Source: Candidatus Koribacter versatilis Ellin345 (GTDB taxonomy: Bacteria > Acidobacteriota > Terriglobia > Terriglobales > Acidobacteriaceae). From it: 64,000 nt of DNA. Positions within the stretch are counted from its first letter, which is position 1. Each line of letters begins with the position of its first letter. Both the position numbers and the translations under genes were made by a program. Of the stretch, positions 1,514 to 20,800 are shown one piece after another. The stretch spans positions 4,526,001-4,590,000 of the forward strand of contig NC_008009.1 of the NCBI RefSeq assembly GCF_000014005.1. Direction: 5' to 3'. Under the pieces are notes generated by a model that was not told where the DNA came from, made no database searches, and saw nothing but the letters and a program-made list of their open reading frames with translations.

Positions 1514-3490
1514 CTAGAACTTCAGGCTTGGCGCAAGGACATGCCATTCCAGAATGAACCAGGTCATGAAAATCGCTGAGAGCACGAACAGGACGTCGTA
1601 AACACGGTTCCACCACCATCGTTGCTCCCACCACGGGCGGAAGAAGTTGTAAATCGCGATCAGCGTCGAAACCACCGCGAGCAAGGCAGTGAACTGGATC
1701 ACTCGATAGAGCCAGTTGCTGCTGGTATTCAGTCCCAGTTCGCCCAGGGCGCTGAAAATGCCGACAACCGTCGCTATAAAGATAAGGTTCAACGCGGCCG
1801 CAAGCATCAGCAGCCGATGACGGCGCGCGTGGACTGGATCGAGGTTCAGACGTTTGTCGTAGTGCCGGCGGGCTGCCGCGCCCACTCCCCAAAGAACCAA
1901 CGCGAGAGAGAAAAAGACGATCGGAGCAATGAGGGTGAAGAGCGCGAATGGCTTGGTGCGGACGGCACCGGGCTTCATCCACATCATGAACGGATAGTCC
2001 ATGGCGAACGACTGGGCGCCGCTGTAGTCGGTAAAGAATTCGAGCTGTGCCTGGCCATCTTGCTCGCGATAGAGGTTCTGCTCAACTTCGACAAATTTCC
2101 TGGGCTGACCGTTGGGCGCCTTGAAATCTTCGATGATGACGTTGCCGTCGGCATCAGCGCCGACCTTCGACTGGCCAATCGCGTTCAGCGCATCCAGCAA
2201 GTTCGGGCCCGGGCGACGGCTGCTCATGTAATAACCTGCGAGACGGGCGGCGTCCTGTTTGGCAGAGGCGATGGCGGTTGTCGGCGGCGGTGTGTAGGGG
2301 AAGTAACGATCGAGAAAATGATGGAACACCGTTTCCCGCAAACCACCTTCAGGTTTCCCGGCGCTATTCTGCGAGATGAAGAACCCGACGTTCGAGTCCA
2401 GAATAAGGTGCAAGTCGCTGTGGAAGTATTGGGTATCGCCGGCGTGGCCAATGATGGTGTGTCCGTTGCGATTTTCCTGATAGAAACCGAGGCACATGCC
2501 GTTCAATCGCGGCCCGACCGAGAACGTGCGCGAGTGCATTTTCTGGGCGGTCGCGGTTTGCAGGATTTGCGCGCCTTCATACTCGCCGTTTTGCAGATGA
2601 GCAATCATGAAGTGCGAGATGTCGTCTGCCGTGATGGCAACGGAGCCCGCAGGGAATGCGGTCACGAACTCATAGGGCTTCGCTTCTCCCGAGCCCACGT
2701 CGTAGCCGGAAGACACGTTGGCTTCCCAGCCCTTCGGAAGAGGCTGGCGAAAAGTGGCGTGCTCCATGTGGAGCGGCTGATAGATGTGGTGCTCGATGTA
2801 GTCGTCGAACGGTTCGCCGGAGACGCGCTGCACGATGTAGCCCGCCAGCGTAGTAGCGTAGTTGGAGTAGGCCGGAACTTTTCCCGGCGGGTAGATGCGA
2901 CGCGGCTGGTGCGATATGACGTAGCCGCGAAGATCTTCCTTACCATTCTGATCTGCCGTAATGAGATCTTTGACCGCTTCTTCGAACCCTGCGGTGTGGG
3001 TCATGATGTTACGTAGGGTGATCGGCTGTCCGAACGCGGCCTCGATTTTGAAATCGAGATATTCGTTTACTTCCTTATCGAGATCCAGCTTGCCTTGTTC
3101 CACCAACTGCATGACAGCTGTCCAGGTGAAGAGCTTGGAGATGCTGCCCGGACGAAACAGGGTTTCGTTCGCTACCACCGGCCGTTTCGTCTTGACGTCG
3201 GCGTAACCGTAGCCCTTCTCATAGATGATCTTGCCGTCTTTTACGACCGAGACCACGGCGCCAGCGATATCGTTGCGAGCGATCTCGGTGGGGACGAGCC
3301 CATCCAAAAAGGCTTCGAGGTCGGCTGCGTCGAGTTCGTGTGTTGATTCCCCGGGAACTACCTTCGAAGTAGCGGGGGCGGCTTCGGGATGCTTTTCTTT
3401 GTTCGTCTTTTGAGGCAGCGGGTTCTGCGCGTTTATGAAGCTGGAACTGATGAGTGCGATACATCCAAGACTGAGTGCGAGTTTTCTCAT
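1514..3490 (-). CDS. Serine hydrolase, beta-lactamase/DD-peptidase fold with membrane C-terminus
   Basis: A 658-residue protein of the PF00144 family (class C beta-lactamase, DD-peptidase, D-aminopeptidase and esterase relatives). It has a signal peptide (MRKLALSLG...INAQ). The SxxK nucleophile motif is SISK near residue 116, YSN near 208, and a HAG triad in place of KTG near 360. A central domain is followed by about four hydrophobic helices at the C-terminus, which would anchor it in the inner membrane with the catalytic part in the periplasm. ATG at 3490 is preferred over upstream starts because it begins the signal peptide and has GGGAG before it. The Oar-like receptor lies 84 bases upstream on the same strand, so uptake and hydrolysis may be linked. 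The substrate cannot be read from sequence. Confidence 0.85.
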   Translation of the reverse strand: MRKLALSLGCIALISSSFINAQNPLPQKTNKEKHPEAAPATSKVVPGESTHELDAADLEAFLDGLVPTEIARNDIAGAVVSVVKDGKIIYEKGYGYADVKTKRPVVANETLFRPGSISKLFTWTAVMQLVEQGKLDLDKEVNEYLDFKIEAAFGQPITLRNIMTHTAGFEEAVKDLITADQNGKEDLRGYVISHQPRRIYPPGKVPAYSNYATTLAGYIVQRVSGEPFDDYIEHHIYQPLHMEHATFRQPLPKGWEANVSSGYDVGSGEAKPYEFVTAFPAGSVAITADDISHFMIAHLQNGEYEGAQILQTATAQKMHSRTFSVGPRLNGMCLGFYQENRNGHTIIGHAGDTQYFHSDLHLILDSNVGFFISQNSAGKPEGGLRETVFHHFLDRYFPYTPPPTTAIASAKQDAARLAGYYMSSRRPGPNLLDALNAIGQSKVGADADGNVIIEDFKAPNGQPRKFVEVEQNLYREQDGQAQLEFFTDYSGAQSFAMDYPFMMWMKPGAVRTKPFALFTLIAPIVFFSLALVLWGVGAAARRHYDKRLNLDPVHARRHRLLMLAAALNLIFIATVVGIFSALGELGLNTSSNWLYRVIQFTALLAVVSTLIAIYNFFRPWWEQRWWWNRVYDVLFVLSAIFMTWFILEWHVLAPSLKF

Positions 3491-3574
3491 TCGTGACTCC
3501 CTAGCCGACAGATCAAGAGCTGCGAGATAAACCCGGCGCAGCCACATTGCGCGGCGCCGGGGAGATGCGTTTTG

Positions 3575-6500
3575 TTAGAAAGAGAACTTCAGCGCCAACT
3601 GCAGAATGCGCGGGTTGGACAGCGTCTTCGTGATGGTTCCAAAACTTGGACCATCGGTGAAGACGTTATCGGGATCGGCGAAATTGACCTGGTTGAAAAC
3701 GTTGAAGGCTTCCGCGCGGAACTCGAAATTGGCAGCTTCACTCAACCGACGTACTGGGAAGACCTTGATCAACGAGAGGTCCGAGCTCGCTTGCGCCGGG
3801 CCCTTGAACAGTCCCAGCGAAGTGTTTCCGAAACCCGTGCCGCCATCCGCCGATGCGGGAGGAGCGGAAGTGAAGCAGGTTGTGTCGATCCATCCGTTCA
3901 GGCGACCAGTAACAGAACCGCCTTTGCTCAGCGAACACCCGGGTGTCATGGTCGCGAAGTCGTAGTTATAACCCTGGGTGTAGACGTTCGTTGGATTCAC
4001 GTCGAGCGCCGGCAGGAGATGTCCGGATTGAAGCGTCGTCACGCCGGCAACTTTCCAGTCTGACAGCAGCGCGCTCGCCCAGCCATGGTCGTGGAACCCG
4101 GGAATTTCGTAAACGTACGAGAGCACAAAACGGTGGGGACGAATAAAGATGTCCGGACCGTGGTCGCGGTTCGGGTTGAAGTTATCGCCAACCTGTGTTC
4201 CGCCGTTCGCGCCGGTCGTGGCGCCCCACACGCTGGTGAGGTCTTTGGCATAGGTATATGAGGCCAGGAACTGCAATCCGTGGCTCAATCGATGTTCCAC
4301 GCTGACCTGCAGCGCGTTGTACCACGAGTAGCCGGTGCTCTGGTCGTAGTAGAGGGCACCGAAGCCTTCATAGGGAATCCGGGCGTAGAAGTTGCCTAAG
4401 GTAGTGTCGGTCTGACCGCGCACCGGATTGTCGGCACTCGCCGCCGATGCCTGGTTCAGGTTGTTGTAGAGGAGCATGTGCGTGCCGTGCGAGCCGGCGT
4501 AGCCCACCTGTACCACCGTTGACTTGGTGATCTGCGCCTGCAAATTCAGTCCGTATTGCTGGAACAGCGGCGGGCGGAGGTTCTGCGCCAAGGCAAACGG
4601 AGAGAGCGTGGTAGTGGCAGCAAATTGTCCGGGAAGGTATTCCACGGGAGCTGAGTACGGGAAGAACTGCGGGAATGCTCCGGGATCGGGGCCGAACGGA
4701 TTGGCGAAGCCTGCAGTCCCTACGGCAGCTCGATACTGTCCCCACGGCTGGTTGGTCTCGAGCTGGAAGTAGGGTTGGCCGGTAATTCGCTGGCGGTAAA
4801 GGCCGTAACCACCGCGTAAAACGAAGCGATCTGAGCCGGGCAACATCCATGCGAAACCGATGCGTGGGTTCCACGTGTTCTGCCCGTCACCGTTGATCGC
4901 GAGATCGTTGCTGGCGCGAGTGACTCCGTCGGGAATCTGCCCCGAAAAGTTGCTGGCAACAATGATGCCTTCGAGACTTCCAGCGGCTCCTGGATTCGGA
5001 TTCACCAGCGAAGGATTCACGTTGGCATTTCTGCCCGCGTTCTCTCCGACATCACCGAGTCGCTCATAGCGGAAGCCCAGATTGAGGGTGAGTCTCTGGG
5101 TAACTTTGAAATCGTCCTGCGCGTAGAGCGACCCGTCCCACACGCGGTAGCCGCGCTGGGTGATGCCCGCGAGGTCGACAGACTGGTAAGGATTGAAGGG
5201 ACCGTCGCCAATCATCAAGCCCGGATAGTCGAGGAAGATCGTATAGCCGGCAAACGCGAACTCGGAGATATTGTCCTGTGAACGCGTGATGTTCCCGCCG
5301 AAGCGGAACGAGTGACGTCCGTGGAACCAGGAGAGCGTGTCCTGGAAGATGTAGTTGTTCTGAGCGATGACGGTCGTCTGGCCGTTGCCGCCTTCATCGA
5401 AGCCGCCGAGCACCGAGATGTTTGCACGTGCATCGTCAAATCCGGGTGCAGTCACACCAATGTCGGAATATTTCAGCGGGAACGACTGGTTGGTGCCGGC
5501 CAGGTTGCGGGTGAATCCAATTTGTGCCTGGTTCACCAGTGCCGAGGTGAACACATAGGTATGGCTGAGCGAGAAATCGCGGAAGTTCTGCGGGTTCTTC
5601 GAGGGAGAACCGGGAACTTGATCGCCAACTGTCTGGGTTTGCGGCAACGTGGATGTCGCTTCACTGTCCGCGTAGAAGAAGCGTTCCTGGAACGTGCTCT
5701 TGGAGTTCTGCAGCCAGTCGAGGTTCACCATGAACTGGTCTTCGTGATAGGGACACGCCACGCTATACGTGGAAAAGCCTTCGGGCAAGCCAGTCGCAGG
5801 ATCGGTTTTGATGACCTGCGGGTTGGGAATCAGGTATTGCCCATTCGAAAGCTTCGCATTGAAGAGCGCCGCGGCCTGCGGACTGATGTTCGCCGCAGTT
5901 ACTGGATTTCCGGTATACGGGTCCATACCGCCGAACGCTGTCGTCGCTCCAACGGCTGCTGCCAACCCTGCATTGGAGCGATCATCGGTCAACACAGGCA
6001 GCGTTACGCTGCTCGAACAGCTCGGATCGATGCCGTTGTTCTGGCGCGTTCCCTGATAGGACGTGAAGAAAAGAAGTTTGTCCCTGACGATAGGGCCGCC
6101 AAACGTGAAACCGAACTGGTTTTGCCGCAGCTCGGCACGAGGCTGGTCGGTCTGTTTGCGGAAGTAATCATTGGCATTCATGGCCTCGTTGCGGAAGAAC
6201 TCCCAACCACTGCCATGCCAGCGATTGGTGCCGGACTTCGTCAGCACGTTCACGTTGGCGCCCGCGTTCCGTCCGAACGAAGCGTCGTATTGGCCAGTCT
6301 GGACCTTGAATTCCTCGATGGTGTCAGGGTTCGGAGCGGACACGCCACCGCTGAAGTGACCGCTCCCCTGGAGGTCGTTGACGTTGACGCCATTCATCTG
6401 AAAATTGTTGTCGGAATAACTGGCGCCGCCGGTCACGAGAGCACCATCCACGCCGCCGCGACCGATCTCGCCGGCATTGAAAATCTCAGCCGAGACGCCC

Positions 6501-7000
6501 GGTGATAGGCCGAGGATTTGCTGATAGTTGCGCGTGACCAAGGGCAGGTTCGCGACTTGACGCTGATCCACGACGTTACCAAGAGAGCTATCTTCGGTCT
6601 TCAGCAGTTCGCCCATATCGTTCACGGAAACGGTTTCATTCTGCGACCCAACTGCCATCTGGACGTTGTCAGCGACGGTCTCCGTGATATGGACGGTGAT
6701 GTCGGGCCGCTCCGCGCGCTTGAAGCCGGTCTTAGTGACCGCCAACACATACGTGCCGGGATTAAGGAGGGAAACCACGTAGGCGCCGGTGTTGGAGGTT
6801 GTAGTGGTGCGAGTTTCGCCCGTGCGGGCGTCGGTCGCCGTGACCGTGGCGTTCGGGATGACGGCTCCAGCCGGATCCGTCACCGTACCGGCGATGGCGC
6901 CTGTGGAAGCGGTTTGGGCCGGAACTGTGTTCACGAGCCCGATGAGTACCAACGACACACAAGCGATATGCAGCACCATACGTTGCCCGAAGAGCGTCAT
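3575..7000 (-). CDS. Oar-like TonB-dependent receptor with carboxypeptidase-regulatory domain (1)
   Basis: A 1,141-residue outer-membrane protein. It has a signal peptide ending near VPAQT, then a carboxypeptidase-regulatory-like beta-sandwich (about 30-115, GAIAGTVTDPAGAVIPNATV). A plug region follows (about 125-230, with VNDLQGSGHFSGGVSAPNPDT), then a long barrel ending in the aromatic residue typical of outer-membrane proteins (LALKFSF). This large family is greatly expanded in Acidobacteriota and is usually thought to import large or complex ligands. GGGAGAG precedes the ATG. The gene is divergent from the MurR/RpiR regulator and is followed by the serine hydrolase, so it may serve the same D-amino-acid or peptide locus. 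The ligand is unknown. Confidence 0.9.
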   Translation of the reverse strand: MTLFGQRMVLHIACVSLVLIGLVNTVPAQTASTGAIAGTVTDPAGAVIPNATVTATDARTGETRTTTTSNTGAYVVSLLNPGTYVLAVTKTGFKRAERPDITVHITETVADNVQMAVGSQNETVSVNDMGELLKTEDSSLGNVVDQRQVANLPLVTRNYQQILGLSPGVSAEIFNAGEIGRGGVDGALVTGGASYSDNNFQMNGVNVNDLQGSGHFSGGVSAPNPDTIEEFKVQTGQYDASFGRNAGANVNVLTKSGTNRWHGSGWEFFRNEAMNANDYFRKQTDQPRAELRQNQFGFTFGGPIVRDKLLFFTSYQGTRQNNGIDPSCSSSVTLPVLTDDRSNAGLAAAVGATTAFGGMDPYTGNPVTAANISPQAAALFNAKLSNGQYLIPNPQVIKTDPATGLPEGFSTYSVACPYHEDQFMVNLDWLQNSKSTFQERFFYADSEATSTLPQTQTVGDQVPGSPSKNPQNFRDFSLSHTYVFTSALVNQAQIGFTRNLAGTNQSFPLKYSDIGVTAPGFDDARANISVLGGFDEGGNGQTTVIAQNNYIFQDTLSWFHGRHSFRFGGNITRSQDNISEFAFAGYTIFLDYPGLMIGDGPFNPYQSVDLAGITQRGYRVWDGSLYAQDDFKVTQRLTLNLGFRYERLGDVGENAGRNANVNPSLVNPNPGAAGSLEGIIVASNFSGQIPDGVTRASNDLAINGDGQNTWNPRIGFAWMLPGSDRFVLRGGYGLYRQRITGQPYFQLETNQPWGQYRAAVGTAGFANPFGPDPGAFPQFFPYSAPVEYLPGQFAATTTLSPFALAQNLRPPLFQQYGLNLQAQITKSTVVQVGYAGSHGTHMLLYNNLNQASAASADNPVRGQTDTTLGNFYARIPYEGFGALYYDQSTGYSWYNALQVSVEHRLSHGLQFLASYTYAKDLTSVWGATTGANGGTQVGDNFNPNRDHGPDIFIRPHRFVLSYVYEIPGFHDHGWASALLSDWKVAGVTTLQSGHLLPALDVNPTNVYTQGYNYDFATMTPGCSLSKGGSVTGRLNGWIDTTCFTSAPPASADGGTGFGNTSLGLFKGPAQASSDLSLIKVFPVRRLSEAANFEFRAEAFNVFNQVNFADPDNVFTDGPSFGTITKTLSNPRILQLALKFSF

Positions 7001-7075
7001 GGTCTCTCCCCCATTTCACCGGCTTTAACGCCAGCCCCAGTCTCTATTTGACGAAAACAAACCCGAACGACATGT

Positions 7076-7107
7076 GAAATAAACGTTTCTTGGAGTCTAA
7101 ACGTTTC
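7076..7107. promoter_or_regulatory. Candidate operator(s) between receptor and RpiR regulator
   Basis: The 200-base divergent region holds GAAATAAACGTTTC (7076-7089), an inverted repeat GAAA-N6-TTTC. TAAACGTTTC, with a palindromic AAACGTTT core, occurs twice (7080-7089 and 7098-7107), 18 bases apart, so both would face roughly the same side of the helix. A third partial inverted repeat, TTTTC-N5-GAAAA, lies near 7157-7172. RpiR-family regulators commonly bind A/T-rich inverted repeats of this general kind. The link to the neighbouring regulator is inference. Confidence 0.4.
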
Positions 7108-7223
7108 AAGTGGCAGAACTGTAGAACTCGCGGGTAATCGCTGTCAAGCCGCATTTTTAGATATTTTTCATCTGGAAAATCAAATGAAACATATGATACG
7201 TTGCAAGCCGAGCGCGACCACAA

Positions 7224-8108
7224 ATGCAGATGCGAGATGGGAAGGCACCGGCAAAAGGCAAGTGGCGGTTAATGAGCCAGGCGGAGCGGATTGCTCAATT
7301 GAGCCCGCGCCGCCGCGAGATTGTGCGCCCCGCGTTCGAAGACCCGCGGCGGTTCGTTTTGCTCAGCGTCCGCGACATGGCGGACAAGCTCGGGACGGAT
7401 CCAGCGACGATGGTGCGCATCGCGCAGAACCTTGGATTCGAGAGCTACAAAGAGTTTCAGCACTACTTGCATGAGTTGTCGGTGGTGAGGGCGACCTCGC
7501 TGGACACGCTGGAGGCGAGCGCGTCGACGGATTCCGATGTGGTCTCGGTGATGCGGGCCTGCCTCGACCAGGAACTCAAAAACATTCGAGCGCTCTACAA
7601 CGGACTCGACCTGGAGAAGCTCGGAACTGCGGCACGCAGGATGTGGCGAGCGCGACGAATCCTGGTGGTTGGCGGTGATGCGGCGACTTCCCTCGTCTCG
7701 TACACGGAATATCACTTCAACGTGATCGGGCTGCCTGCCTATGCGGCTACCTCGCCGGGCGTTGCAGTACACGCCGTGCGCAGCCTCGGCAAGAGTGATG
7801 TGCTGCTCGCGATCAGCTTCCGGCGCGGCCTCAGGATGACGATTGAGGCGATCCAGCAGGCGCGCAATGCGGGGGCCTACTGCATCGGGATTACCGATAC
7901 CTACATCTCGCCGGTTGCAAGGTTTGCGGATGAGTTCTTCCTTGCCGGCATCGATTCGAATTCCTTCGGTGTCTCCTACTCCGCGCCAATGTGCCTGCTG
8001 AATGTGTTCCTGGTGGCGATTGCACAAGCGCAGCGGGCCAAAACTCTGGAAGTGATGACCAAGGTCGCAGAAGAGCAGTCGCACGGATCGCGCTTCTACC
8101 AGGAATAA
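7224..8108 (+). CDS. MurR/RpiR-family transcriptional regulator
   Basis: A 294-residue protein with an N-terminal RpiR helix-turn-helix (about 20-95, RDMADKLGTDPATMVRIAQNLGFESYKEF) and a C-terminal SIS sugar-isomerase-fold domain (about 125-265, ILVVGGDAATSLVSYTEYHF and SDVLLAISFRRGL). Family members sense phosphosugars or related small molecules, for example N-acetylmuramate-6-phosphate for MurR. Start is uncertain: ATG at 7224, 7230 or 7272 are in frame and none has a strong ribosome-binding site; the 7272 start would still keep the whole HTH domain. It is followed 16 bases later by the acyltransferase and racemase genes and diverges from the receptor, so it is the likely local regulator. 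Confidence 0.88.
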   Translation: MQMRDGKAPAKGKWRLMSQAERIAQLSPRRREIVRPAFEDPRRFVLLSVRDMADKLGTDPATMVRIAQNLGFESYKEFQHYLHELSVVRATSLDTLEASASTDSDVVSVMRACLDQELKNIRALYNGLDLEKLGTAARRMWRARRILVVGGDAATSLVSYTEYHFNVIGLPAYAATSPGVAVHAVRSLGKSDVLLAISFRRGLRMTIEAIQQARNAGAYCIGITDTYISPVARFADEFFLAGIDSNSFGVSYSAPMCLLNVFLVAIAQAQRAKTLEVMTKVAEEQSHGSRFYQE

Positions 8109-8124
8109 TCCTCGTGGAGATTGA

Positions 8125-8913
8125 GTGAATCAGCAGATGCAATCCTCACAGTCCAGCCCAGGCGATGCAGCGACGGCTGCCAGCGTGGTGATACGGCCCT
8201 GCGCCACTCCGGAAGAATTTCGGGCGTGCGTGGAGGTGGAAACGGAAGTCTGGAACTTCGATGCAAGTGAGGCGGTGTCGCACCACATCATGGCGGTGGC
8301 ACACGAGACCGGAGGCCAGGTCTTCGGCGCTTTCGACGGGCAACGCATGATCGGCTTTGCGTTGGCGTTCCCTGCTATTCGCGACGGTCATGTCCACTTG
8401 CATTCGCACATGGCTGCCGTGATCTCCGCCTACCAGGAGCGTGGCATCGGTCAGATGCTGAAGCTGAAGCAGCGTGAGGAAGCTCTGTCGCGGGGGATCA
8501 AGCTGATCGAGTGGACGTTTGACCCGCTGCAAACACGAAATGCAAATTTCAATATCCGCAGGTTGGGAGCGGTGGTGCGCCGGTATCTTCCGAATTTTTA
8601 CGGAGTGTCATCCAGTCCTCTGCATTCCAATTTGCCGACGGACCGTCTGGTTGCCGCGTGGCACCTGGATTCAGGGCGGGTGCGGGCTCATATTGCCGGT
8701 AAAGCACATGAGCCTGGCGACAACCAACGCAAGATTTCTGTCCCGAAAAACATGAACGAACTTCGCCATGCGGATCCTTCGAAAGCCGCGGAAATTCAAT
8801 TGGGTGTACGTCGGCAATGCCAGGATGCATTTGAGCAACAGTACACAGTGACTGCATTTACAACCGACGAAAACAACGGCTATTTCATTTTGGAAAAAAA
8901 TTATGCGTATTGA
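8125..8913 (+). CDS. GNAT acyltransferase, likely D-amino-acid N-acyl/succinyltransferase
   Basis: A 262-residue GNAT-fold protein of the COG3375 type. Acyl-CoA-binding sequence is seen as AVISAYQERGIGQMLKLKQREEAL (an R/Q-x-x-G-x-G/A-like loop, about residues 98-121), with the family-typical run EWTFDPLQTRNANFNIRRLGA after it. Its stop overlaps the start of the racemase gene by 11 bases, so the two are translationally coupled. In Geobacillus kaustophilus a GNAT succinyl-CoA:D-amino-acid N-succinyltransferase works with an N-succinylamino-acid racemase to convert D- into L-amino acids; the same pairing here suggests the same chemistry. Acyl donor and amino-acid range are not visible in the sequence. 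Confidence 0.8.
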   Translation: MNQQMQSSQSSPGDAATAASVVIRPCATPEEFRACVEVETEVWNFDASEAVSHHIMAVAHETGGQVFGAFDGQRMIGFALAFPAIRDGHVHLHSHMAAVISAYQERGIGQMLKLKQREEALSRGIKLIEWTFDPLQTRNANFNIRRLGAVVRRYLPNFYGVSSSPLHSNLPTDRLVAAWHLDSGRVRAHIAGKAHEPGDNQRKISVPKNMNELRHADPSKAAEIQLGVRRQCQDAFEQQYTVTAFTTDENNGYFILEKNYAY

Positions 8914-10051
8914 TTTTGTAGCTTTGCGGGAACTGCAAATGAAGTTGCGGTCGCCTTTTGAGACGAGCTTTGGAACCACGGTGAACCGGCGCGTGCTGCT
9001 CGTGGAAGTGCGCTCGGAAGGCGCAACGGGGTGGGCCGAAATCACGACGCCCGAAGGGCCGTTTTACAACGCTGAAACCACTGACAGCGCTTGGCATGTA
9101 TTTCAGGATTTCATTGTGCCAATGGTACTCGGCAAGAGCGTGGAGCGAGCCGCTGACGCCACGCTGCTAATGCAAGGCATTCGTGGAAATGAAATGGCTC
9201 GGGCCGGCTTCGAGAATGCGCTCTGGGTAATTGAGGCCATCGCAAAACAACAGCCGCTCAGCAAGCTGCTCGGCGGTCAGCGCGAGGAGATCGCGTCTGG
9301 CGTGTCGCTGGGAATCCAGGCAGACACATCGGTCCTTCTCGAGAAGATTCAGCAAGAGCTTGAGGCTGGATACCGCCGCATCAAGCTGAAGATCAAACCG
9401 GGCATGGATCTCCAAGTTGTGCGCCAGGTGCGCGAAAAGTATCCAACGATCCCACTCATGGTGGATGCAAATTCTGCGTATCGGCTGGAAGATGCGCCGC
9501 TCCTGAAGGAACTCGACGCGTTCGATCTCATGATGATCGAGCAGCCGTTGAACTGGGACGACATCTACCTTCACTCACTTTTGCAGAAGCAATTGAAAAC
9601 TCCGATTTGTCTCGACGAATGTATCCACAACGCAGGCCATGCGCGGGCAGCGATTGAAATGCATGCCTGCGGGATCATCAACATCAAGCTGGGAAGAGTT
9701 GGCGGTCACAGCGAAGCACGGCACATTCACGACGTCTGCCTGCACCGCAACGTTCCCGTGTGGTGCGGCGGGATGCTGGAGTCCGGCGTAGGGCGCGCAC
9801 ACAACGTTGCAATGAGTGCCCTTCCTGGATTCGTGCTACCCGGCGATGTCTCCGCGAGCCGCCGTTACTGGGAAGAAGACATCATCGAACCGGAGATTGA
9901 GGTGCGCAGCAACGGCACCATTCCGGTGCCAAAAACGCCGGGGCTCGGATACGAAGTGAATGAAGATCGCGTAAAGCGACTGACCGTCCGGGAGCAGGAA
10001 TGGCGGGCGACATCGGAGGTTCCTGTCGGTGCTCTTCCGAATAGCGTGTAG
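8903..10051 (+). CDS. N-acylamino-acid racemase / o-succinylbenzoate synthase (enolase superfamily)
   Basis: A 382-residue enzyme of the MenC type 2 / NSAR-OSBS family, full length. The acid-base Lys pair is in IKLKIKPG (about 161 and 163). Metal ligands are in VDANSAY (Asp about 188), IEQPL (Glu about 213) and LDECI (Asp about 236). The second catalytic Lys is in INIKLGRVGG (about 262). These positions match those of characterised NSAR enzymes. No other menaquinone genes are nearby, while a GNAT transferase overlaps its start and an amino-acid permease and a DD-carboxypeptidase/D-aminoacylase gene follow. Racemisation of N-acylamino acids is therefore more likely than menaquinone synthesis, although both activities can occur in one protein. 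Confidence 0.88.
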   Translation: MRIDFVALRELQMKLRSPFETSFGTTVNRRVLLVEVRSEGATGWAEITTPEGPFYNAETTDSAWHVFQDFIVPMVLGKSVERAADATLLMQGIRGNEMARAGFENALWVIEAIAKQQPLSKLLGGQREEIASGVSLGIQADTSVLLEKIQQELEAGYRRIKLKIKPGMDLQVVRQVREKYPTIPLMVDANSAYRLEDAPLLKELDAFDLMMIEQPLNWDDIYLHSLLQKQLKTPICLDECIHNAGHARAAIEMHACGIINIKLGRVGGHSEARHIHDVCLHRNVPVWCGGMLESGVGRAHNVAMSALPGFVLPGDVSASRRYWEEDIIEPEIEVRSNGTIPVPKTPGLGYEVNEDRVKRLTVREQEWRATSEVPVGALPNSV

Positions 10052-10054
10052 TAG

Positions 10055-11419
10055 TCAGTCTTTGGCTTGGCGTTTGGAGCGTGCGTTCCAGATGAAGTAA
10101 ACCGGAGCGCCCGCGAGCACCAGACCCAAGCCGACAGCCGCACGCGCAGGTTGCGCGATGACGGTGTTGACCACGAGCGCAGTCGCTGCAAGCACGAAGA
10201 GGATGGGAGTAACGGGATATCCCGGAACGCGATAGGGCCGCTCGGCATCGGGCTCGCGCCGACGGTAGACGAACACGGCGAGTGCGCCGAATGCGTAAAA
10301 GATCCAACCCGTGAAGATGACATAGGTGAGCAATTGTTCGAACGTTCCGGAGACAGCCAACACGATCGACCAGGCGCAACCGGCGATGACTGCAAAGGCC
10401 GGCGTTTGGTAGCGAGGATGCACTTCGGCCAGTTTGCGGAAGAAGACGCCGTCCTGCGCCATGGCGTAATAGACGCGTGGACTGGTGAGGATCAAGCCGT
10501 TCGCCGCGCTGAACATGGAAACCAGGATCGCGAGCGAAATCAGTTTGGCGAAACCCGGTCCAAGCACAGCGCCAATCGCATCGGAAGCTACACGGTTCGA
10601 GGCAGCCGCCCCGCCTGCGCCCAGCGCCGCGAGATACCCAAGGTTAGCGAGAACATAGACACTCACCAACACAAGGCTTCCGACAAGCAGTGCGCGCGGG
10701 AACGTCTTTTGCGGATCCGCGATCTCTCCCGCACTGAAGGTGCAGTACTGCCAACCTTCATACGCCCAGAGCACGCTGATCATGGCGAGGCCGAAGCCGC
10801 TGTAGAGCGTCCCGGTTTGGGTGGTGGTGGCCGTCACGGTGGCGGAACTGTGACCTCCAAGCGCGAAGAGCACAACGGTCATTGCGAGAATGGCCGCAAC
10901 TTTCAGCGCGGTTGCGACGTTCTGCACATTCGCACTCTTGCGCGTCCCGATCACATTAATTACGCCGACGACCACGATCATCGCGGAAGCGACGATTTTC
11001 GCTTCGATATCGTTCAGCGGCACGATCTGTCGCAGATATGTACTGAAGGCGACCGCCAGGGTCGCGACCGAACCACTGCTCATCATGAAGAACAACGCCC
11101 AGCCGTACAGAAATGCGAGCGGGCGGCCAAAGCAATCGCGAAGGTAAACGTAGAGTCCGCCGGCTTGGGGCTTCATCGCGCCGAGTTCGCCGTAGGTGAG
11201 CGCGCCCATCAGCGAGAGAAGTCCGCCGAGGAGCCAAACTGCGAGTGCGAGGTCCACGCGGTTGTGCACGTTGCGAAGCACCGGGCCGGGAACAAGAAAA
11301 ATGCCGGAGCCAATCACGGTGCCAACGATGAGCAGTACGACGTCACGAAGAGTCAGGGTGCGCAGCAGCGGCAAGAAATTGTCCTTCGAATGACGAACGT
11401 TGTTTGCGAAGTGACGCAC
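10055..11419 (-). CDS. APC-superfamily amino acid permease
   Basis: An inner-membrane transporter of about 454 residues with 12 predicted helices. The first has the family signature VGTVIGSGIFLVPGPVL, and later sequence includes GELGAMKPQAGGLYVYLRD and WAYEGWQYCTFSAGE, as in LAT/APC-type amino-acid permeases and exchangers. The stop lies four bases after the racemase stop, in convergent orientation. An ATG or alternative start could be taken as far up as 11623, but that would overlap the DacB fusion gene; GTG at 11419 starts just before the conserved region and is a compromise. In this setting it could import or exchange amino acids handled by the neighbouring enzymes; specificity is not visible. 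Confidence 0.85.
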   Translation of the reverse strand: MRHFANNVRHSKDNFLPLLRTLTLRDVVLLIVGTVIGSGIFLVPGPVLRNVHNRVDLALAVWLLGGLLSLMGALTYGELGAMKPQAGGLYVYLRDCFGRPLAFLYGWALFFMMSSGSVATLAVAFSTYLRQIVPLNDIEAKIVASAMIVVVGVINVIGTRKSANVQNVATALKVAAILAMTVVLFALGGHSSATVTATTTQTGTLYSGFGLAMISVLWAYEGWQYCTFSAGEIADPQKTFPRALLVGSLVLVSVYVLANLGYLAALGAGGAAASNRVASDAIGAVLGPGFAKLISLAILVSMFSAANGLILTSPRVYYAMAQDGVFFRKLAEVHPRYQTPAFAVIAGCAWSIVLAVSGTFEQLLTYVIFTGWIFYAFGALAVFVYRRREPDAERPYRVPGYPVTPILFVLAATALVVNTVIAQPARAAVGLGLVLAGAPVYFIWNARSKRQAKD

Positions 11420-11486
11420 AGGGTAACAGAGGTTCGCTTTTCTAAGAAATTTGAATTGGGTTGAACATAACTCTTCGAGGTATTTC

Positions 11487-14400
11487 ATGAAGCGTTTCAG
11501 GATATTGCTACCGGCCTTCTTCTTGGCGACCACGTGGGTCAGCGCGCAGGCTCCCTCCGATCTCGCACAGCGCGTTGAAGAGATCATGACGCGCCCGGAG
11601 TTTGCGCATGCCACATTTGGCATGCAGTTCTATTCACTGAAGAGCGGCAAAGTGGTTTATGAACTGAACGCTCAGAAGCTCATGGTGCCGGGCTCGACCA
11701 CGAAGCTGTTTACCGAGGGCACAGCACTCGAGACGCTCGGTGCGGACTATCGCTTCCATACGCGGATTTACCACACCGGCACGCTCAAATCGAATGGCAC
11801 GCTCGAGGGCGACATCGTGCTGGTCGCGAGTGGCGATCCCAACTTGTCTGGACGCATTCAACCAGATGGAACGCTCGGTTTCGAAAATGAAGACCACAGT
11901 TATGGCGGCGTCGATAGCCGTGGCGTCGGCTCGGATCCGCTGCTGGTGATCCGCGAATTTGCGCAGCAGATTGCGAGCAAAGGCGTGAAGCGCGTGAAGG
12001 GCCGGGTGCTGATTGACGCGCGGCTGTTTCCGCAGGGGACGCGCGAACTGGGCACCGGCGTTGTGATGTCTCCGATCGTTGTGAACGACAACCTGATTGA
12101 TGTGATCGCCACTCCTGGAGCGACCGAAGGCGCACCCGCGCAACTGAAAATTGCGCCAGAAACTTCCTATGTGCGGTTCGTGAACAAGGTCACGACGGGC
12201 AAGACCGGTTCCAAACTCGAGTTCGATTACTCCGATCCGCAGCCTGGGCCGAATGGTTCGCAAGTCGTCACGGCAACGGGGAGCCTGCCATTGGGCAAAC
12301 CGGTAGGGATGGTTTCGTATCCGGTGCCGGATCCCGCGCGTTACGCCCAAGTGGTTCTGAGCGAGGCACTCCGCTCGCAGAAGATCGAAGTAGAAATTCC
12401 TGCCAACAATGATGCCGATTTCAAAGCGCTCGAACCGTCTTACAAGCCAGAGAACCTACTTGCCGAACACGTGTCGCCTCCGCTGAGTGAAGAAGTGAAG
12501 ATCACGCTGAAGGTCAGCCAGAATCTGCACGCGAGCATGACGCCGTATCTGCTTGGCGCACTCGCTGGTCACGCCACCAAGGACATCGATCAAGCTGGCT
12601 TTGATGTTGAGCACGATTTTCTGTCGAAGGTCGGGCTCGACCTTACCGCGGCCTCGCAGAGCGATGGCGCTGGCGGAAACGCATTTTTCACGCCTGACTT
12701 CGTCGTGAAGTATCTCGTCCATATGGCAAGCAGCAAAGATGCCGCGCTGTTCCGGCGCGGGTTGCCGATTCTTGGCCGCGACGGGACCCTCGCGAAGATT
12801 GAAACTGATTCTCCCGCAGCCGGACACGTTTTCGCGAAGACCGGCACGTACTTCGTATCGGATGCGCTGAACAAGAATCTTCTGGTCACTGGTAAAGGGC
12901 TCGCCGGCTACATGGAAACCAGTGGCGGCGATGAACTAGCGTTTGCGATTTACGCGAACAACGTTTCTGTGCCGATGGATTCCGAGCAGGCACAGAAGAT
13001 CGTAGGTGGCGCGCTGGGCGAGATCGCATCCGCTGCATACGCCTCCGCTGGAAGCGGGGCGCAAGCTGCGTCCTCTGGTGCATCCGCTGAGTACGACGTT
13101 CTGATTCGTGGCGGGCATGTGATCGATGGCAGCGGCAACCCATGGATCGCTCAAGACGTGGCGATCAAAGGCGACCGCATCGTCGCTCTCGGGAAACTTG
13201 GAAACGCGACGGCAAAGCGCACGATCGATGCGACCGGCCTCGTCGTGGCACCGGGATTCATCGACATGCTGGGGCAGTCGGAGTTTCAACTCGTCATCGA
13301 CAATCGCTCTTTCAGCAAACTCTCACAGGGCATCACGACTGAGATCACGGGCGAAGGACAATCCATCGCCCCGCAGAATGAACGTACGCTGGCGCCACTG
13401 AAACCGTTGGAAGATCAACTTCATTTCAAAATCGATTGGACCGACCTGGACGGGTACTTCGCTCACCTGGAGAAATCCGGCACGCCGATCAATATCGGCA
13501 CATACGTTGGCGCGGCACAGGTGCGCGAGGCAGTGATTGGAGAAGATGACCGCGTTCCGACTGCGCAGGAATTGGAAGCAATGAAGCAGTTGGTAGCGAC
13601 CGCAATGCAGCAAGGCGCATTCGGTATGTCGACGGCGCTGATTTACCCTCCCGGCCACTACGCCAAGACCGACGAACTGATCGAACTGTCGAAGGTGGTG
13701 TCGCAGTATGGCGGTATCTACGCATCGCACATGCGCAGTGAAGGCAGCTCCGAAATCAAAGCGATCGAGGAAGCTCTGCGCATCGGACGCGAAGCCAATG
13801 TGCCGGTCGAAATCTTCCATTTGAAAGTGGTCGGCGCACCGCGCTGGGGCACCATGCCAAAGATCGTGGACATGATCCAGACCGCACGCGACGCGGGTCA
13901 GGATGTGCGCGCGGATATGTATCCCTACGTCGCCGGAGGCACGGCACTCGCCTCAGCGCTGCCGCCTTGGGTTGCGGATGGAGGAATGCAAAAGCTGCTC
14001 GAGCGCCTGCATGACCCTGCGGTGCGTGCGCGCATCACTCGAGAGATTGAAGCCGGTGATCATCCCGATTGGGAGAATCTGTATTTCGACAGCGGCGGCG
14101 CCAAGGGCGTACTCGTCACGGGAATCACGAACAAAGACCTGAAAGACATCGACGGAAAAACGATCGCGCAGATCGCAGGGATCCAGAAGAAGAAACCACT
14201 CGATGCGCTGATGGATCTCGTGATCGCCGACAAGGCGCAAACGGGGGCACTCTACTTCATCGCCAACGAAAAAGATCTTCAATACGGACTCAAGCAGCCA
14301 TGGACGAGCATTGGTCTGGATGCGGGCGAACTTTCACTCGACGGTCCCCTGTTTGATCCGCATCAGCATCCGCGCGCATTCGGTTCGATGCCGCGCTTCC

Positions 14401-14717
14401 TCGGTCATTACGTTCGCGACCTTCACCTTATGAGCATGGAGCAAGCGATTCGAAAGATTACCTCGATGCCGGCGCAGCGTGAAGGATTGCATTATCGCGG
14501 ACTGATCAAAGAAGGCTTCTTCGCGGATGTCACGATCTTCGATCCAGCGACCATCCTCGACAAAGCTACCTATGAAGACTCAGTGAAACCGTCGGTGGGA
14601 GTGAAGTACGTTCTCGTCAACGGCCAACTCGAGTTCGCAGATGGAAAGGTGACCGGAGTGATTGCAGGCAAACCGCTTCGTGGCCCAGGTTGGAAGCCTG
14701 AACCAAACGCGAAGTAG
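11487..14717 (+). CDS. Fusion: PBP4-type DD-carboxypeptidase (DacB) + D-aminoacylase-like amidohydrolase
   Basis: One uninterrupted 1,076-residue frame. After a signal peptide (MKRFRILLPAFF...VSAQ) comes a peptidase S13 domain (about 20-520) with STTK at 70-73, SQSDGAGG near 390 in the place of the SxN motif, and KTGT near 450. An Ala/Ser/Gly linker (about 520-535) leads to a COG3653 amidohydrolase domain (about 536-1070) that begins YDVLIRGGHVIDGSG. In this half the usual HxH metal motif after APGFID is replaced by MLGQS, and the usual Cys position reads TGEGQS. His in ASHMRSEG (about 747) and EIFHLKV (about 776) and Asp in IGLDAGE (about 943) are kept. Both halves would act in the periplasm, releasing or processing D-amino-acid compounds. 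GAGG lies seven bases before the ATG. Confidence 0.85.
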   Translation: MKRFRILLPAFFLATTWVSAQAPSDLAQRVEEIMTRPEFAHATFGMQFYSLKSGKVVYELNAQKLMVPGSTTKLFTEGTALETLGADYRFHTRIYHTGTLKSNGTLEGDIVLVASGDPNLSGRIQPDGTLGFENEDHSYGGVDSRGVGSDPLLVIREFAQQIASKGVKRVKGRVLIDARLFPQGTRELGTGVVMSPIVVNDNLIDVIATPGATEGAPAQLKIAPETSYVRFVNKVTTGKTGSKLEFDYSDPQPGPNGSQVVTATGSLPLGKPVGMVSYPVPDPARYAQVVLSEALRSQKIEVEIPANNDADFKALEPSYKPENLLAEHVSPPLSEEVKITLKVSQNLHASMTPYLLGALAGHATKDIDQAGFDVEHDFLSKVGLDLTAASQSDGAGGNAFFTPDFVVKYLVHMASSKDAALFRRGLPILGRDGTLAKIETDSPAAGHVFAKTGTYFVSDALNKNLLVTGKGLAGYMETSGGDELAFAIYANNVSVPMDSEQAQKIVGGALGEIASAAYASAGSGAQAASSGASAEYDVLIRGGHVIDGSGNPWIAQDVAIKGDRIVALGKLGNATAKRTIDATGLVVAPGFIDMLGQSEFQLVIDNRSFSKLSQGITTEITGEGQSIAPQNERTLAPLKPLEDQLHFKIDWTDLDGYFAHLEKSGTPINIGTYVGAAQVREAVIGEDDRVPTAQELEAMKQLVATAMQQGAFGMSTALIYPPGHYAKTDELIELSKVVSQYGGIYASHMRSEGSSEIKAIEEALRIGREANVPVEIFHLKVVGAPRWGTMPKIVDMIQTARDAGQDVRADMYPYVAGGTALASALPPWVADGGMQKLLERLHDPAVRARITREIEAGDHPDWENLYFDSGGAKGVLVTGITNKDLKDIDGKTIAQIAGIQKKKPLDALMDLVIADKAQTGALYFIANEKDLQYGLKQPWTSIGLDAGELSLDGPLFDPHQHPRAFGSMPRFLGHYVRDLHLMSMEQAIRKITSMPAQREGLHYRGLIKEGFFADVTIFDPATILDKATYEDSVKPSVGVKYVLVNGQLEFADGKVTGVIAGKPLRGPGWKPEPNAK

Positions 14718-14734: not shown

Positions 14735-15889
14735 TCAGAAATCATCCGCGTCGACTTGTTCTGAGGCGCTCACCAGGTTGAGCGCCTGATTATCCTGCTC
14801 TTCACAGCGCGGGAGGACGATATGCACAACCGTCCCCCCGCCTTTGGCGGGCGAGATCGCCAACATGTGCGATCCTTTGTAGAGATGGTCGAGCCGCTCG
14901 CGAGTGTTTCGCAGGCCGGTGCCGCCGTTCTTGCCATTCGTTTTGGCCGGCAACCCTCTGCCGTTGTCCCTTACCCAAAGCTCCAGGTTCCCATCTCTGG
15001 CTAATGCATCGATTGCGACGACGAGTCCATTGGAAGTCTGTGACATGCCATGCTTGACCGAATTTTCTACGAGCGGCTGCAGCAGCATGGTCGGCACCAT
15101 GCAGCAATAGAGCGAGTCTTGGACGTCGATGGTCAATTGCAAACGCGACGGAAACCGGAGCTGCTCGATCGAGAAGAATGTTTTCGTAAATTCAAGCTCT
15201 TCGGCGAGCGTGTGCGTATTGCTTCGCATTCCACCAATAATTTCGCGAAGGAGGTCCGCGATGCTAAACAGCATTCTCTCGGCCGCATCGGGATCGGCGT
15301 GAATCAACTCGGCGGCCGTATTCAAGCAGTTGAAGAGGAAATGCGGCTGCAGTTGCAACCGGAGCATCTCGATCCGGGCTTCCGCGGCCGCCCGACGCAT
15401 TTGCTCTTCAGCAAGCGCTCTACGCTGGGCCTCGCTCTTGGACCACATGAGTTGCGCCAGGACGACCACCGAGAGATAGGCCGTAACGCCCTCACTGTGG
15501 AGGCTGTATAAGAACATTCGCCAGGCCAGATCCAAGCTCGCCGACGCAATTTCACCCGTGAACTGATTACGCACAGGATAGAGCGCCATGCGAAGCACGG
15601 TATGAGCGGCAGTGAATAGCACCATTCCAGCCGCGTGGATACCCACGAATCGAAGCCAATTGGATTTCTGCAGCACAATCCGGCTGGAGGCGACGAAAAC
15701 GAATGGCGTAAGAAACGCGTCAATCCAGCAATTCAACAGATGAAGAAGTTCGATCTCCCGTAGCGAGGTCGGATGCCCGGCTGCGAAGTGCCAGGCATAG
15801 TTCGACCCGCCGTAGAGGAGAGAAAATGCTGTCCACGCCGTGAAGCTCACTGCCCACAGACGCCAATCCTTCAGGCGGACGGTTTGCAA
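14735..15889 (-). CDS. LytS/YehU-type sensor histidine kinase
   Basis: A 384-residue kinase. About four to five hydrophobic helices occupy residues 10-160. A His_kinase domain follows with the phospho-acceptor in QLQPHFLFNCLN (His about 182), and then an HATPase domain with the N box NSVKHGM and DNGRGLP. This class has no separate HisKA dimerisation helix pair and works with LytTR regulators. The ATG at 15889 is four bases after the stop of the response-regulator gene, so the pair is a single operon with the regulator first. The signal is unknown; kinases of this class often sense envelope or small-molecule cues through the membrane part. Confidence 0.9.
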   Translation of the reverse strand: MQTVRLKDWRLWAVSFTAWTAFSLLYGGSNYAWHFAAGHPTSLREIELLHLLNCWIDAFLTPFVFVASSRIVLQKSNWLRFVGIHAAGMVLFTAAHTVLRMALYPVRNQFTGEIASASLDLAWRMFLYSLHSEGVTAYLSVVVLAQLMWSKSEAQRRALAEEQMRRAAAEARIEMLRLQLQPHFLFNCLNTAAELIHADPDAAERMLFSIADLLREIIGGMRSNTHTLAEELEFTKTFFSIEQLRFPSRLQLTIDVQDSLYCCMVPTMLLQPLVENSVKHGMSQTSNGLVVAIDALARDGNLELWVRDNGRGLPAKTNGKNGGTGLRNTRERLDHLYKGSHMLAISPAKGGGTVVHIVLPRCEEQDNQALNLVSASEQVDADDF

Positions 15890-15892
15890 GGG

Positions 15893-16657
15893 CTACACCC
15901 TGGTTCCCGAACGAGTCATGGAAAGCATGCGTTGCAACGCATCGCGGTAGGTCCTTGTGAGAGTGACTTTCGTGCCGAAAATCGTGGTGATCGAATACTC
16001 TCCATGGCACGTCGGTTCTAATTCCTGAACGAACGAGAGATTCACAATCTCAGACCGATTGACTCGAAAGAACCGACGCGGGTCAACGCGACATTGGATC
16101 CGCGTCATGGTTTCGCGAATGATGTAAGACTTCCCGGCGGCATACACGATGGCATAATTTCCGGCCGCAGAAATTCGTTCTACTTGCCCCGGATCCAGCA
16201 TCACAAACTTTCCATCCGTCTTGATCAGGATCCGCTCGTAACGCGAAGCGTCCAGACCCGACCGGGCATTGGACGTGCCTACGGAATTGGCTGCGGTCTT
16301 GAGTTTCCCGACGGCCGCCGAAAAACGTTCCTGGCTGATCGGTTTCAGCAGGTAATCCACCGCGCTCGCCTCGAACGCGCGGACAGCGTACTCCTCGTAC
16401 GCCGTCGTAAATACCACCCAGGGAAGCGTAGGACCCTGGAAGGCATCGAGCACTCCGAAGCCATCCACTTCGGGCATCTGCACATCGAGAAACACAACCT
16501 GCGGACGAAGCTCGCAAATACTCTCGATGGCGCTTGCGGCCGACGAACACTCAGCAACCAGCGACAAGGAGGGCTCCTCCCGCACCAGACGAGAAATCCG
16601 TTGCAGCGCGAAGGGTTCGTCGTCCACGGTGATCACCCGAATGGGCGCAGGGCTCAC
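15893..16657 (-). CDS. LytTR-family response regulator
   Basis: A 254-residue regulator with a receiver domain (about 5-120) and a LytTR DNA-binding domain (about 150-250). The receiver has acidic residues in VDDEP, phospho-Asp in VVFLDVQMPEVDG (about 57), Thr in FTTAYEEYA and Lys in YLLKPI. The LytTR part reads ISAAGNYAIVYAAG and FFRVNRSEIVNL. Start is GTG at 16657, with GGGGG eight bases before it. It is co-transcribed with the LytS-type kinase that follows. LytTR domains typically bind pairs of short repeats; the upstream region carries several inverted repeats that are candidate targets. Confidence 0.92.
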   Translation of the reverse strand: MSPAPIRVITVDDEPFALQRISRLVREEPSLSLVAECSSAASAIESICELRPQVVFLDVQMPEVDGFGVLDAFQGPTLPWVVFTTAYEEYAVRAFEASAVDYLLKPISQERFSAAVGKLKTAANSVGTSNARSGLDASRYERILIKTDGKFVMLDPGQVERISAAGNYAIVYAAGKSYIIRETMTRIQCRVDPRRFFRVNRSEIVNLSFVQELEPTCHGEYSITTIFGTKVTLTRTYRDALQRMLSMTRSGTRV

Positions 16658-17882: not shown

Positions 17883-20800
17883 TCAGAAGATGAACTTGAA
17901 GACCAACTGCAAAGCACGGGCGCCGCCGGTAAACTGCTTGGAATCCAGGAACTGGCTGCTCCCCGTTTGCACATAGCCAAGGTTGAACGCTTGGAGTCCA
18001 GTTGCGGTTCCGAACACCGTAACCGGACCGGCCACCGTAAAGTTGCGATGATTGAATACGTCGTAAACTTCTACGCGCGCCAGGAACGACTTCCCTTCCG
18101 TCACCCGGAAACTCTTCCCGAGCGACGCGTTCCATACTCCGAATCCCGGCGAGTACACCGTGTCACGGCCGAGATTCGAACGCGCACCAAGTTGACTGGC
18201 AACGAAAGCAGCGCCTGAATTCATGCTGACGTAGCCCACCACGTTCGAAGGCGAACACGGCGTTGCCGCGGCATCTTGCGGATTCACGATTCTGGTCGCG
18301 CCACCGCTTCCGTCGTTACAAACGAAGTTCACATCGGTAGAGAGGTTCTGGGAACCGTGGGGATTGAAGATCGCGCGCTCGCCAGCGGTGTCGCCGTTTG
18401 CATTCGCATCGTAAGGAGACAGAATCGTAACCGGCTGACCGGTCTGGGCGATGAAGTCGCCGTTGATTTCGTACCCGTTCGCCAGCGCTCTCAGCAAACG
18501 GCTACCGCTTGTCAGGTTCGGGGTGTGATAGGTCCAGGCTACGGCGAACTTATGCCGTACATCCAGCACTGAATTTCCCCGTTCCGCATCGAGGTCGTAG
18601 CTATCTTCAGCACGGCGCGGATTCACCGAGCTCGAGTTCAGTTCGTTCGTTGCGTTGTCGATGTTATGCGACCAGGTGTAATTCGCACGCATCGTCAAGC
18701 CGTGGCGCAGACTTTGTGTGAACGACACAGAAGCGCCGTGGTAGACGCTCGCACCAAACGGCCCGATCTCGGTCAGCACGTTGACGAATCCGTACTGTGA
18801 ATACGGCGCGAACCCCTGGTTTGCAAGGAAGGTTTTGAAATCCGCTTGCGTGGATGCAGGGTTCGGAACGGCCGACGGGACTTCGGAGTTGCTGAAGTAG
18901 GTCGGCAACGCAGTCAGACCGGCATCGAAAGCACTAATGCTGTTCAGTCGGATCTGGGTCGGCAGATGGAAACTCCGCGAACCAACGTAGCGCACATCCA
19001 AAACGCCACCAGCGTAAACCTCGCGCTGAATGCCGAGGCTCCAGTTCACGATGCGAGCATCAATCGTGTCTGGCATGATGGAAGCCGTGAGTGCCCGCGG
19101 TATGTCGGGACCGGGCGCGAGCGTATAGGTTGACGGCAGTGCTCCCTGCGCAAAGAAGTGGTCTCCTGAAGCGCACCATGCAGGAGCAGTGGTCAGGCCG
19201 CCGAAGCACGCTGTTCCCAGGTTGAGGACCGTCTGTACCTGCGGCGGCTGGGCATTCTGGTTGAAGTTGTTAACCGGAGGCGAATATCCCAATCCGATTC
19301 CGCCACGAACCGAGGTCTTGCCGGTTCCGGTGGGGTCCCACGCAAATCCGATTCGCGGTTCGAAATCCAGCTTCGCGGTGTTCGGTGCGTGAAAGTCGAT
19401 CACTCCGGGAACATTTGAAATTGCGTTCTTCGCCTGACGTTCTGCGCCAGAGGGATTGTTGGTGAACTCATATCGAAGACCGAGGTTCAGGGTCAGCCGA
19501 TTGCTCACCTTGAAGTCATCCTGCAGGAATGCCCCGACGGCACTCTGCGTTTCCGGAAACACCGGGTCTCCGGCGCCGCGGAGCATTTGGATCTCCGGCA
19601 CGCCGTCGTTGATAAACGTCTGTGTCGAAAGATAGAAGTAGTTCCCGTTGGATCTTTGCAGGAAAAATGCCGGCGCGATGTAATGACGATATTCACCGCC
19701 ATACTTCAATGTGTGCCGGCCGAAAATCTTGGTTTGCGTATCGATGACCTGGTACACATCCTGCAAGATCCTCTGCGGATCATTGGCCCCGAAGGTGATG
19801 CCATTCATGTCGGCCAGGAAAATGAGTGGGTTGTTGCTGAAGGGCTCTGGAACCGCGAGGCTCTGCAGAGAATGGGAGTACGAGATCCGCAGGTCGTTGA
19901 CCAGCGTGTTGGAGATCGACCAGGTGTCAATCAAGGCCGCTTTGTAATTTGTGAGGGTGGTAGGCAGATTGTATTCAGGCGTACTGATCGCACCGGCGGT
20001 TATGATGTCTTGCTTGTTGAACAGGAAGCGCGCGCTCAGTTCATGGCGACCTTCTTTTAGGTCGCTATTGATCTGAAAATCATGTTCTTTAAACGGATTG
20101 GGCGCCACCTGGGGAACCAAGCCGGTGGGAATGCTGACGCCGTTCACCAGAAGCGGCGCGGAGTTTGCGGTTTGCGCCGCAGGCAGCGTGCCAATCAGGT
20201 TCGCAATGTACGGAGTTGCCGCCAGCGACTGCAAAGTGCTGATGCCTGCTGCCGTAGGCGTTTCTATGTCGGCTCCGAGGCTGTCCGCGCGCTGGTCGAA
20301 GTATTCATAGGCGCCGAAGATGAACCAGCGGTTCTTGATGATCGGGCCACCTATCGTCCCACCTACTCGGCTGACGTCAAGCCTGGGAGTGTGGTCGATG
20401 GCGCCTTGCGCGATTGCATCTTTCGTCAAATTGTCGAGCGCATTCAGGAAGCGGTTCTGCAGGTAGTACTCCCCTGACCCGTGCCAACTGTTGGTGCCTG
20501 TCTTGGTGACGATGTTGAATTGCCCGCCGCCCGCGTGCCCGTACTCCGCGGAAAACGGATTCGTCACCAGGTTGAATTCGGCGACTGCATCCTGAATGAC
20601 GTTCGAGATCTGGCCGGAAGTGCCCGCGTTGTTATCGTCCACGCCGTCAATGTTGAAGGAGTTGGACCGTGGACGTGTACCGGAAACGGATCCGCCAGTG
20701 CCGGTTACGCCGCCTTGTTGCGCCGTAGTGTTCGCCGAAAACAATGCCAATTGCAGCGGACTGTTGGATCCGCTGGGAATATCGAGAGTTTCTCGCGTAT

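Follow-up and report, generated by a model that had tools for sequence, protein, structure and literature searches.

We analyzed a group of genes between positions 1514 and 14717 of a 64,000-nucleotide stretch (the window, whose own coordinates are used below) of the complete, 5.65-Mb genome of Candidatus Koribacter versatilis Ellin345 (NC_008009.1, positions 4,526,001 to 4,590,000), the products of which suggest a role in harvesting D-amino acids from peptides. Gene calls and profile searches located the genes that a first-pass annotation had grouped together at 7224–14717 at or very near these positions. The group begins with a MurR/RpiR-family regulator (RpiR; 7224–8108, plus strand) that has helix-turn-helix (HTH) and SIS domains; the SIS match was above the Pfam cut-off and the HTH_6 match (24.6 bits) was below its cut-off of 28.3. 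After a gap of 16 bases there is a GNAT N-acyltransferase (8125–8913, plus strand), which overlaps by 11 bases, much as had been claimed, a member of the N-acylamino-acid racemase/o-succinylbenzoate synthase (NSAR/OSBS) family (8903–10051, plus strand). These three genes lie head to tail and are likely to form one operon. An APC-family amino acid permease (10055–11415, minus strand; PF13520, 181 bits), whose open frame extends to 11623 and whose start is estimated to be near 11400, is convergent with the NSAR gene and divergent from a gene for a secreted fusion of an S13 peptidase and an amidohydrolase (11487–14717, plus strand). Because the permease gene is on the opposite strand between them, the fusion gene is outside the RpiR-GNAT-NSAR operon and is its own transcription unit.

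Two further genes are both on the minus strand and divergent from RpiR across a gap of 223 bases, in keeping with the earlier statement that the locus faces them. The nearer encodes an Oar-like TonB-dependent outer-membrane receptor (3575–7000; PF25183, 590 bits; PF07715 above cut-off) consisting of a carboxypeptidase-regulatory-like domain, a plug and a barrel. The other encodes a secreted PF00144 serine hydrolase (1514–3547; 214 bits) with C-terminal membrane segments and the motifs SxxK (135), YSN (227) and HAG (368). Downstream of the locus, a gene for a histidine kinase is paired with one for a LytTR response regulator, and after them comes another Oar-like-looking gene (14735–16657 and 17883–21299).

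The NSAR homologue scored 342.8 bits against TIGR01928, the o-succinylbenzoate synthase model (cut-off 200.65). It has K161, K163, D188, E213, D238, K262 and R265, of which K161, K163 and K262, presumably the catalytic lysines, and D188, E213 and D238, which we take to be the acidic metal ligands, were invariant across the alignment. The AlphaFold2 (AF2) model of the GNAT protein (pLDDT 90.6) matched PDB 2r7h_A best (TMt 0.84, E 3e-8), which supported the assignment of a GNAT fold, and we predict that this enzyme acylates D-amino acids. For the permease, the best profile model was that of an L-type amino acid transporter, with a score under that model's cut-off.

The secreted S13/amidohydrolase fusion

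The fusion protein (1076 residues) starts at an ATG at 11487, upstream of a signal peptide (MKRFRILLPAFFLATTWVSAQA). Its S13 part, residues 26–505, which we assign to the PBP4-type DD-carboxypeptidases/endopeptidases, scored 193 bits against Peptidase_S13 and the protein scored 149.4 bits against TIGR00666 (cut-off 107.8). All of the S13 motifs are present (S70-x-x-K73, S344-x-N and K451-T-G), so that the fusion has both the motifs and the family score expected of the peptidase S13/PBP4 family. In these respects it resembles PBP4/DacB, to which it adds a C-terminal amidohydrolase domain.

The amidohydrolase domain (approximately residues 530–1065; 301.6 bits to PDB 1RJP) is homologous over most of its length to the D-aminoacylase/N-acyl-D-amino-acid deacylases (1M7J, 1RJP and 3GIP) and to PpOngB (PMC12017989), and retains the equivalents of D-aminoacylase H220, H250, K252 and D366. 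Unlike those enzymes, it is secreted, is joined to an S13 peptidase and is without the equivalents of H67, H69 and C96. In place of the HxH motif (H67, H69) it has LGQ, within GFIDMLGQSE (13254–13283, plus strand), and at the GNCG motif that holds C96 it has TGEGQS (13347–13364, plus strand), in which there is a Glu and no Cys. The GQS/TGEG-type motif pair was found in most of 65 aligned homologues, with variation in the most distant rows, and the Glu of the TGEG-type motif was conserved in nearly all of them.

Zinc in the subtype V amidohydrolases is held by a Cys/His/His site, with a catalytic Asp (PMC12017989). In our alignment the Cys of this site was missing from the fusion and both His and the Asp were kept. 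Of the Glu/His/His and HxH motifs that mark subtype IV, a Glu and both His were conserved and HxH was absent. The metal ligands of the CE9 family are Glu/His/His (PMC12017989). Based on the missing Cys, the conservation of the Glu and both His, and the precedent of CE9, we predict that the fusion has a mononuclear Glu/His/His metal site that uses H748 and H778. The earlier description of a DD-carboxypeptidase fused to a D-aminoacylase-like amidohydrolase was borne out for the fusion itself and the fold family, with the correction that the canonical Cys and HxH metal ligands are absent. As judged from the alignment, "D-aminoacylase-like" is a correct label for the fold family, and the metal-ligand set is a different one. 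An AF2 model of the whole fusion, made without an alignment, had a pLDDT of 35.5 and was discarded as unusable.

Genes for S13 and the amidohydrolase were adjacent in 14 loci and formed a single open reading frame in 13 of these, one of which was cut by a contig end. The idea that the fusion is a rarity was dropped: a phylum-wide sample (E limit 1e-170) returned only the genome studied here, and RpiR-anchored sampling of the class returned 13 loci, in one other family. In the amidohydrolase tree the window protein grouped with the unfused proteins of L107 and L201 (support 99/98), inside a clade whose remaining members are that other family's fusions. The S13 tree placed the window S13 outside the S13 clade of that family, and an approximately unbiased (AU) test rejected a single S13 clade of the window and the other family's rows (p 0.001), in a tree with long branches and for a grouping picked after the tree had been inspected. 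These sequence comparisons favor separate origins of the fusion without proving them; there could have been two fusions, or one fusion followed by losses and a fast-evolving S13.

Conservation of the neighborhood and a palindrome linked to RpiR

Loci anchored on RpiR were drawn from phylum and class sets, and their gene content was read with one common reference set; 20 random loci (18 from genomes with RpiR loci and two from the window's own genome) served as controls. Among 56 RpiR loci, the D-aminoacylase-like amidohydrolase was found in 22, S13 in 19, M15 in 18, and NSAR and the serine hydrolase in 16 each, and none of these was found in any random locus. Oar was present in 27 of the 56 (2/20 random loci) and GGT in 16 (0/20), and neither the amidohydrolase, S13 nor M15 occurred in any of 77 NSAR loci outside the RpiR context. 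Fisher p-values for such counts overstate their significance, since many of the loci come from one family (the other one with the fusion) and are kin; the independent support is the recurrence across different lineages and gene orders. Co-occurrence in related genomes, the lack of which the first-pass annotation had named beforehand as evidence that would tell against its proposal, was found in several lineages and in varied gene orders.

In several families, RpiR relatives adjoin NSAR, S13, the D-aminoacylase-like amidohydrolase, M15 (the D-Ala-D-Ala dipeptidase family), M19, M55, the serine hydrolase and Oar. An arrangement like that of the locus studied here is kept in G051, from a third family, in which RpiR-GNAT-NSAR is divergent from Oar-serine hydrolase-S9-M23-amidohydrolase. 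G095 has RpiR-NSAR with Oar, M19, the amidohydrolase, GNAT and serine hydrolases, and G083 has RpiR-GNAT-M20-aminotransferase-M55 plus Oar-NSAR. The order in one other family is ilvC-RpiR-[NSAR]-M15-S13/amidohydrolase-GGT. Sulfotelmatobacter (L201) has Oar, serine hydrolases and APC-NSAR-amidohydrolase, Alicyclobacillus (L239) has RpiR-NSAR-M19-serine hydrolase-APC, and the Bacillaceae have RpiR-M20-GNAT-NSAR-transporter.

The individual genes recur in a similar manner. A 53% RpiR homologue is immediately upstream of a fusion in L066, a 59% permease homologue is immediately upstream of NSAR in L201, and Oar homologues of 44–47% adjoin RpiR and/or NSAR in L067, L120, L201 and L202. Serine hydrolase homologues (46–48%, over most of the length) occur in L067, L169, L170, L201 and L202, all NSAR loci, and a 53% fragment is at the contig end of L119, also an NSAR locus. 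GNAT homologues of 28–31% are immediately upstream of NSAR in Bacillaceae. NSAR homologues were found in 60 of 61 sampled relatives, with a GNAT homologue adjoining in most of the loci inspected, although the genome studied here appears to use the futalosine route for menaquinone. This genome has a second NSAR copy, with a GNAT, at C1:2609862; that pair (L068:7048–8972, C1:2609 kb) and loci L007–L035 are outside any such neighborhood. In the NSAR tree the window copy paired with the syntenic copy of the G051 locus (96/98) and not with the second copy of its own genome, which fell in a family clade.

A 16-base palindrome, TGMAACANNTGTTKCA, is common to the RpiR loci, in the gaps flanking RpiR; an earlier half-site idea (GAAACGTTTC) was abandoned in its favor. 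A matrix was built from 43 sites, none of them from the window's own genome. The two best matches in the 64-kb window, TGAAACATATGATACG (7185–7200, 16.6 bits) and TGAAATAAACGTTTCT (7075–7090, 15.6 bits), are both in the Oar-RpiR gap, and the best elsewhere scored 11.8 bits. With each locus left out in turn and the better RpiR flank taken, 36 of the 56 RpiR loci scored above the 99th percentile obtained for random sequence stretches of 350 bases. Together, the random-locus controls and the leave-one-out scoring ruled out chance clustering. From the positions of these palindromes, RpiR probably controls at least the divergent Oar/serine hydrolase and RpiR-GNAT-NSAR units.

With one mismatch, the palindrome pattern was found at 33 sites in the whole genome, versus 16 for a reversed control. 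Operator-like sites were seen near other Oar-like genes and a divergent serine hydrolase pair (L316, L317, L320 and L322), and two strong ones (23.0 and 19.3 bits) at the locus of a second RpiR copy (L072). This copy (50%) adjoins an NlpC/P60 endopeptidase and a Tat-signal-like enolase-superfamily protein (L072:6857–9841). A further strong site (20.6 bits) is at the downstream end of ilvC (L323:5281; C1:3690280); it is possibly a relic or a chance match, and one other family has its RpiR locus at that place.

Proposed function and its alternatives

Geobacillus kaustophilus has a known route from D- to L-amino acids that uses GNAT and NSAR. The RpiR-M20-GNAT-NSAR-transporter operon of Bacilli (Heyndrickxia coagulans, L265; Caldibacillus, L267) shares with the window locus an RpiR, a GNAT directly followed by NSAR and a transport gene nearby; in the window locus, which was compared with L267, RpiR, GNAT and NSAR are contiguous. 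The two differ in that the window locus is without the M20 deacylase, has a permease of a different family and adds the secreted fusion, the serine hydrolase and the Oar receptor. The locus is thus an elaborated version of a known kind of operon. MurR, the regulator of N-acetylmuramic acid (MurNAc) use, is of the same MurR/RpiR fold family; the window RpiR scored 39.3 bits against the MurR equivalog NF012026 (cut-off 408), and its target genes are about peptides, not MurNAc. A look through the literature for prior descriptions yielded little of use beyond a review on NSAR in biocatalysis and the OngB paper (PMC12017989).

We consider it probable that the locus serves to obtain D-amino acids from peptides that derive from peptidoglycan or contain D-residues for other reasons. 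Peptides would be taken up by the Oar-like receptor, and the periplasmic fusion, with help from the serine hydrolase, would cut D-Ala-containing cross-links and tails and hydrolyze N-acyl- or peptidyl-D-amino acids. The amino acids would be imported through the APC permease, the D-forms N-acylated by GNAT and the N-acyl-D form racemized to the L form by NSAR. The acyl group may then be removed by an unlinked M20-type hydrolase: there was no L-deacylase in the locus, and the closest M20 homologue (44% to the M20 of G083) is at C1:249670. We infer all of these reactions, together with the transport specificity, the direction of flux and the ligand of the regulator, the computed observations being the gene content, its conservation, the regulator-linked palindrome and the lack of a full MenD. 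The proposed union of these genes in one scavenging locus is supported as a conserved association with a common regulator and operator-like site, and is putative as chemistry.

Besides the altered ligands of the amidohydrolase and the kinship of many loci, several observations weigh against this proposal. The pairing of GNAT with NSAR is contiguous here as had been noted, yet GNAT is not a general feature: most related RpiR loci are without it and it was present in just 4 of the 16 that carry NSAR, so the acylation step may be supplied from elsewhere. APC homologues were no rarer in random loci (2/20) than in RpiR loci (2/56), and the matrix scan of the window found no comparable operator-like match upstream of the fusion or the permease. 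Many RpiR relatives adjoin an Oar gene only and some have no recognized neighbor, and for this reason the regulon may be broader, serving peptide scavenging in general.

The suggestion that the NSAR homologue is instead the o-succinylbenzoate synthase of menaquinone synthesis, with incidental neighbors, gains from the TIGR01928 match above cut-off, and NSAR/OSBS family members can carry both activities. A menaquinone role is nevertheless unlikely because MenD was not found above cut-off in the complete genome (best 64.7 bits versus 244.2) and MqnC of the futalosine route was (482.5 bits, cut-off 428.1). With a second family copy in the genome and recurrence of the neighborhood elsewhere, we regard this explanation as largely refuted and very improbable. 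S13 peptidases of other bacteria work on their own cell wall, and the fusion and serine hydrolase could likewise be PBP4-like housekeeping enzymes for remodeling or recycling the wall of the cell itself, next to a separate GNAT-NSAR pair for D-amino acid detoxification. The second GNAT-NSAR pair outside such a context, the wide spread of these pairs in acidobacteria and the separate transcription unit of the fusion, without an operator, all agree with this. The patchy distribution of the fusion does not. It speaks instead for a catabolic role that the genes have in common, as do the operator that they share and the links, seen in several lineages, to Oar and to genes of the M15, M55, M19 and GGT families; we judge own-wall housekeeping unlikely. 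It is more doubtful still that the locus serves general scavenging or detoxification of D-containing or blocked peptides, such as nonribosomal peptides or aged protein, rather than peptidoglycan. Some RpiR loci do have S9, S15, M28, M19 and serine hydrolases and no wall-specific enzyme, and the Oar-like genes near RpiR are diverse; however, S13, M15 and M23 are typically families of wall-peptide enzymes, and the second RpiR copy of this genome adjoins the NlpC/P60 endopeptidase.

Acidobacteria are widespread in soil, where the D-amino acids of dead bacteria are a source of nitrogen and carbon. Beyond the proposed harvesting of D-amino acids by this one locus, we put forward, as a tentative extension for which the case is nearly balanced, that many acidobacteria feed on D-amino acid peptides of bacterial cell walls under the control of an RpiR family whose members recognize one type of palindromic operator, and that the Glu-type D-aminoacylase variant used for this became joined to a PBP4-type peptidase on more than one occasion. 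With its regulator, operator and enzymes defined, the scavenging of cell walls by acidobacteria would be open to genetic testing. In addition, an amidohydrolase variant without the usual Cys/HxH broadens the range of chemistry that D-aminoacylase homologues can be expected to have, and many of these homologues may carry wrong annotations.

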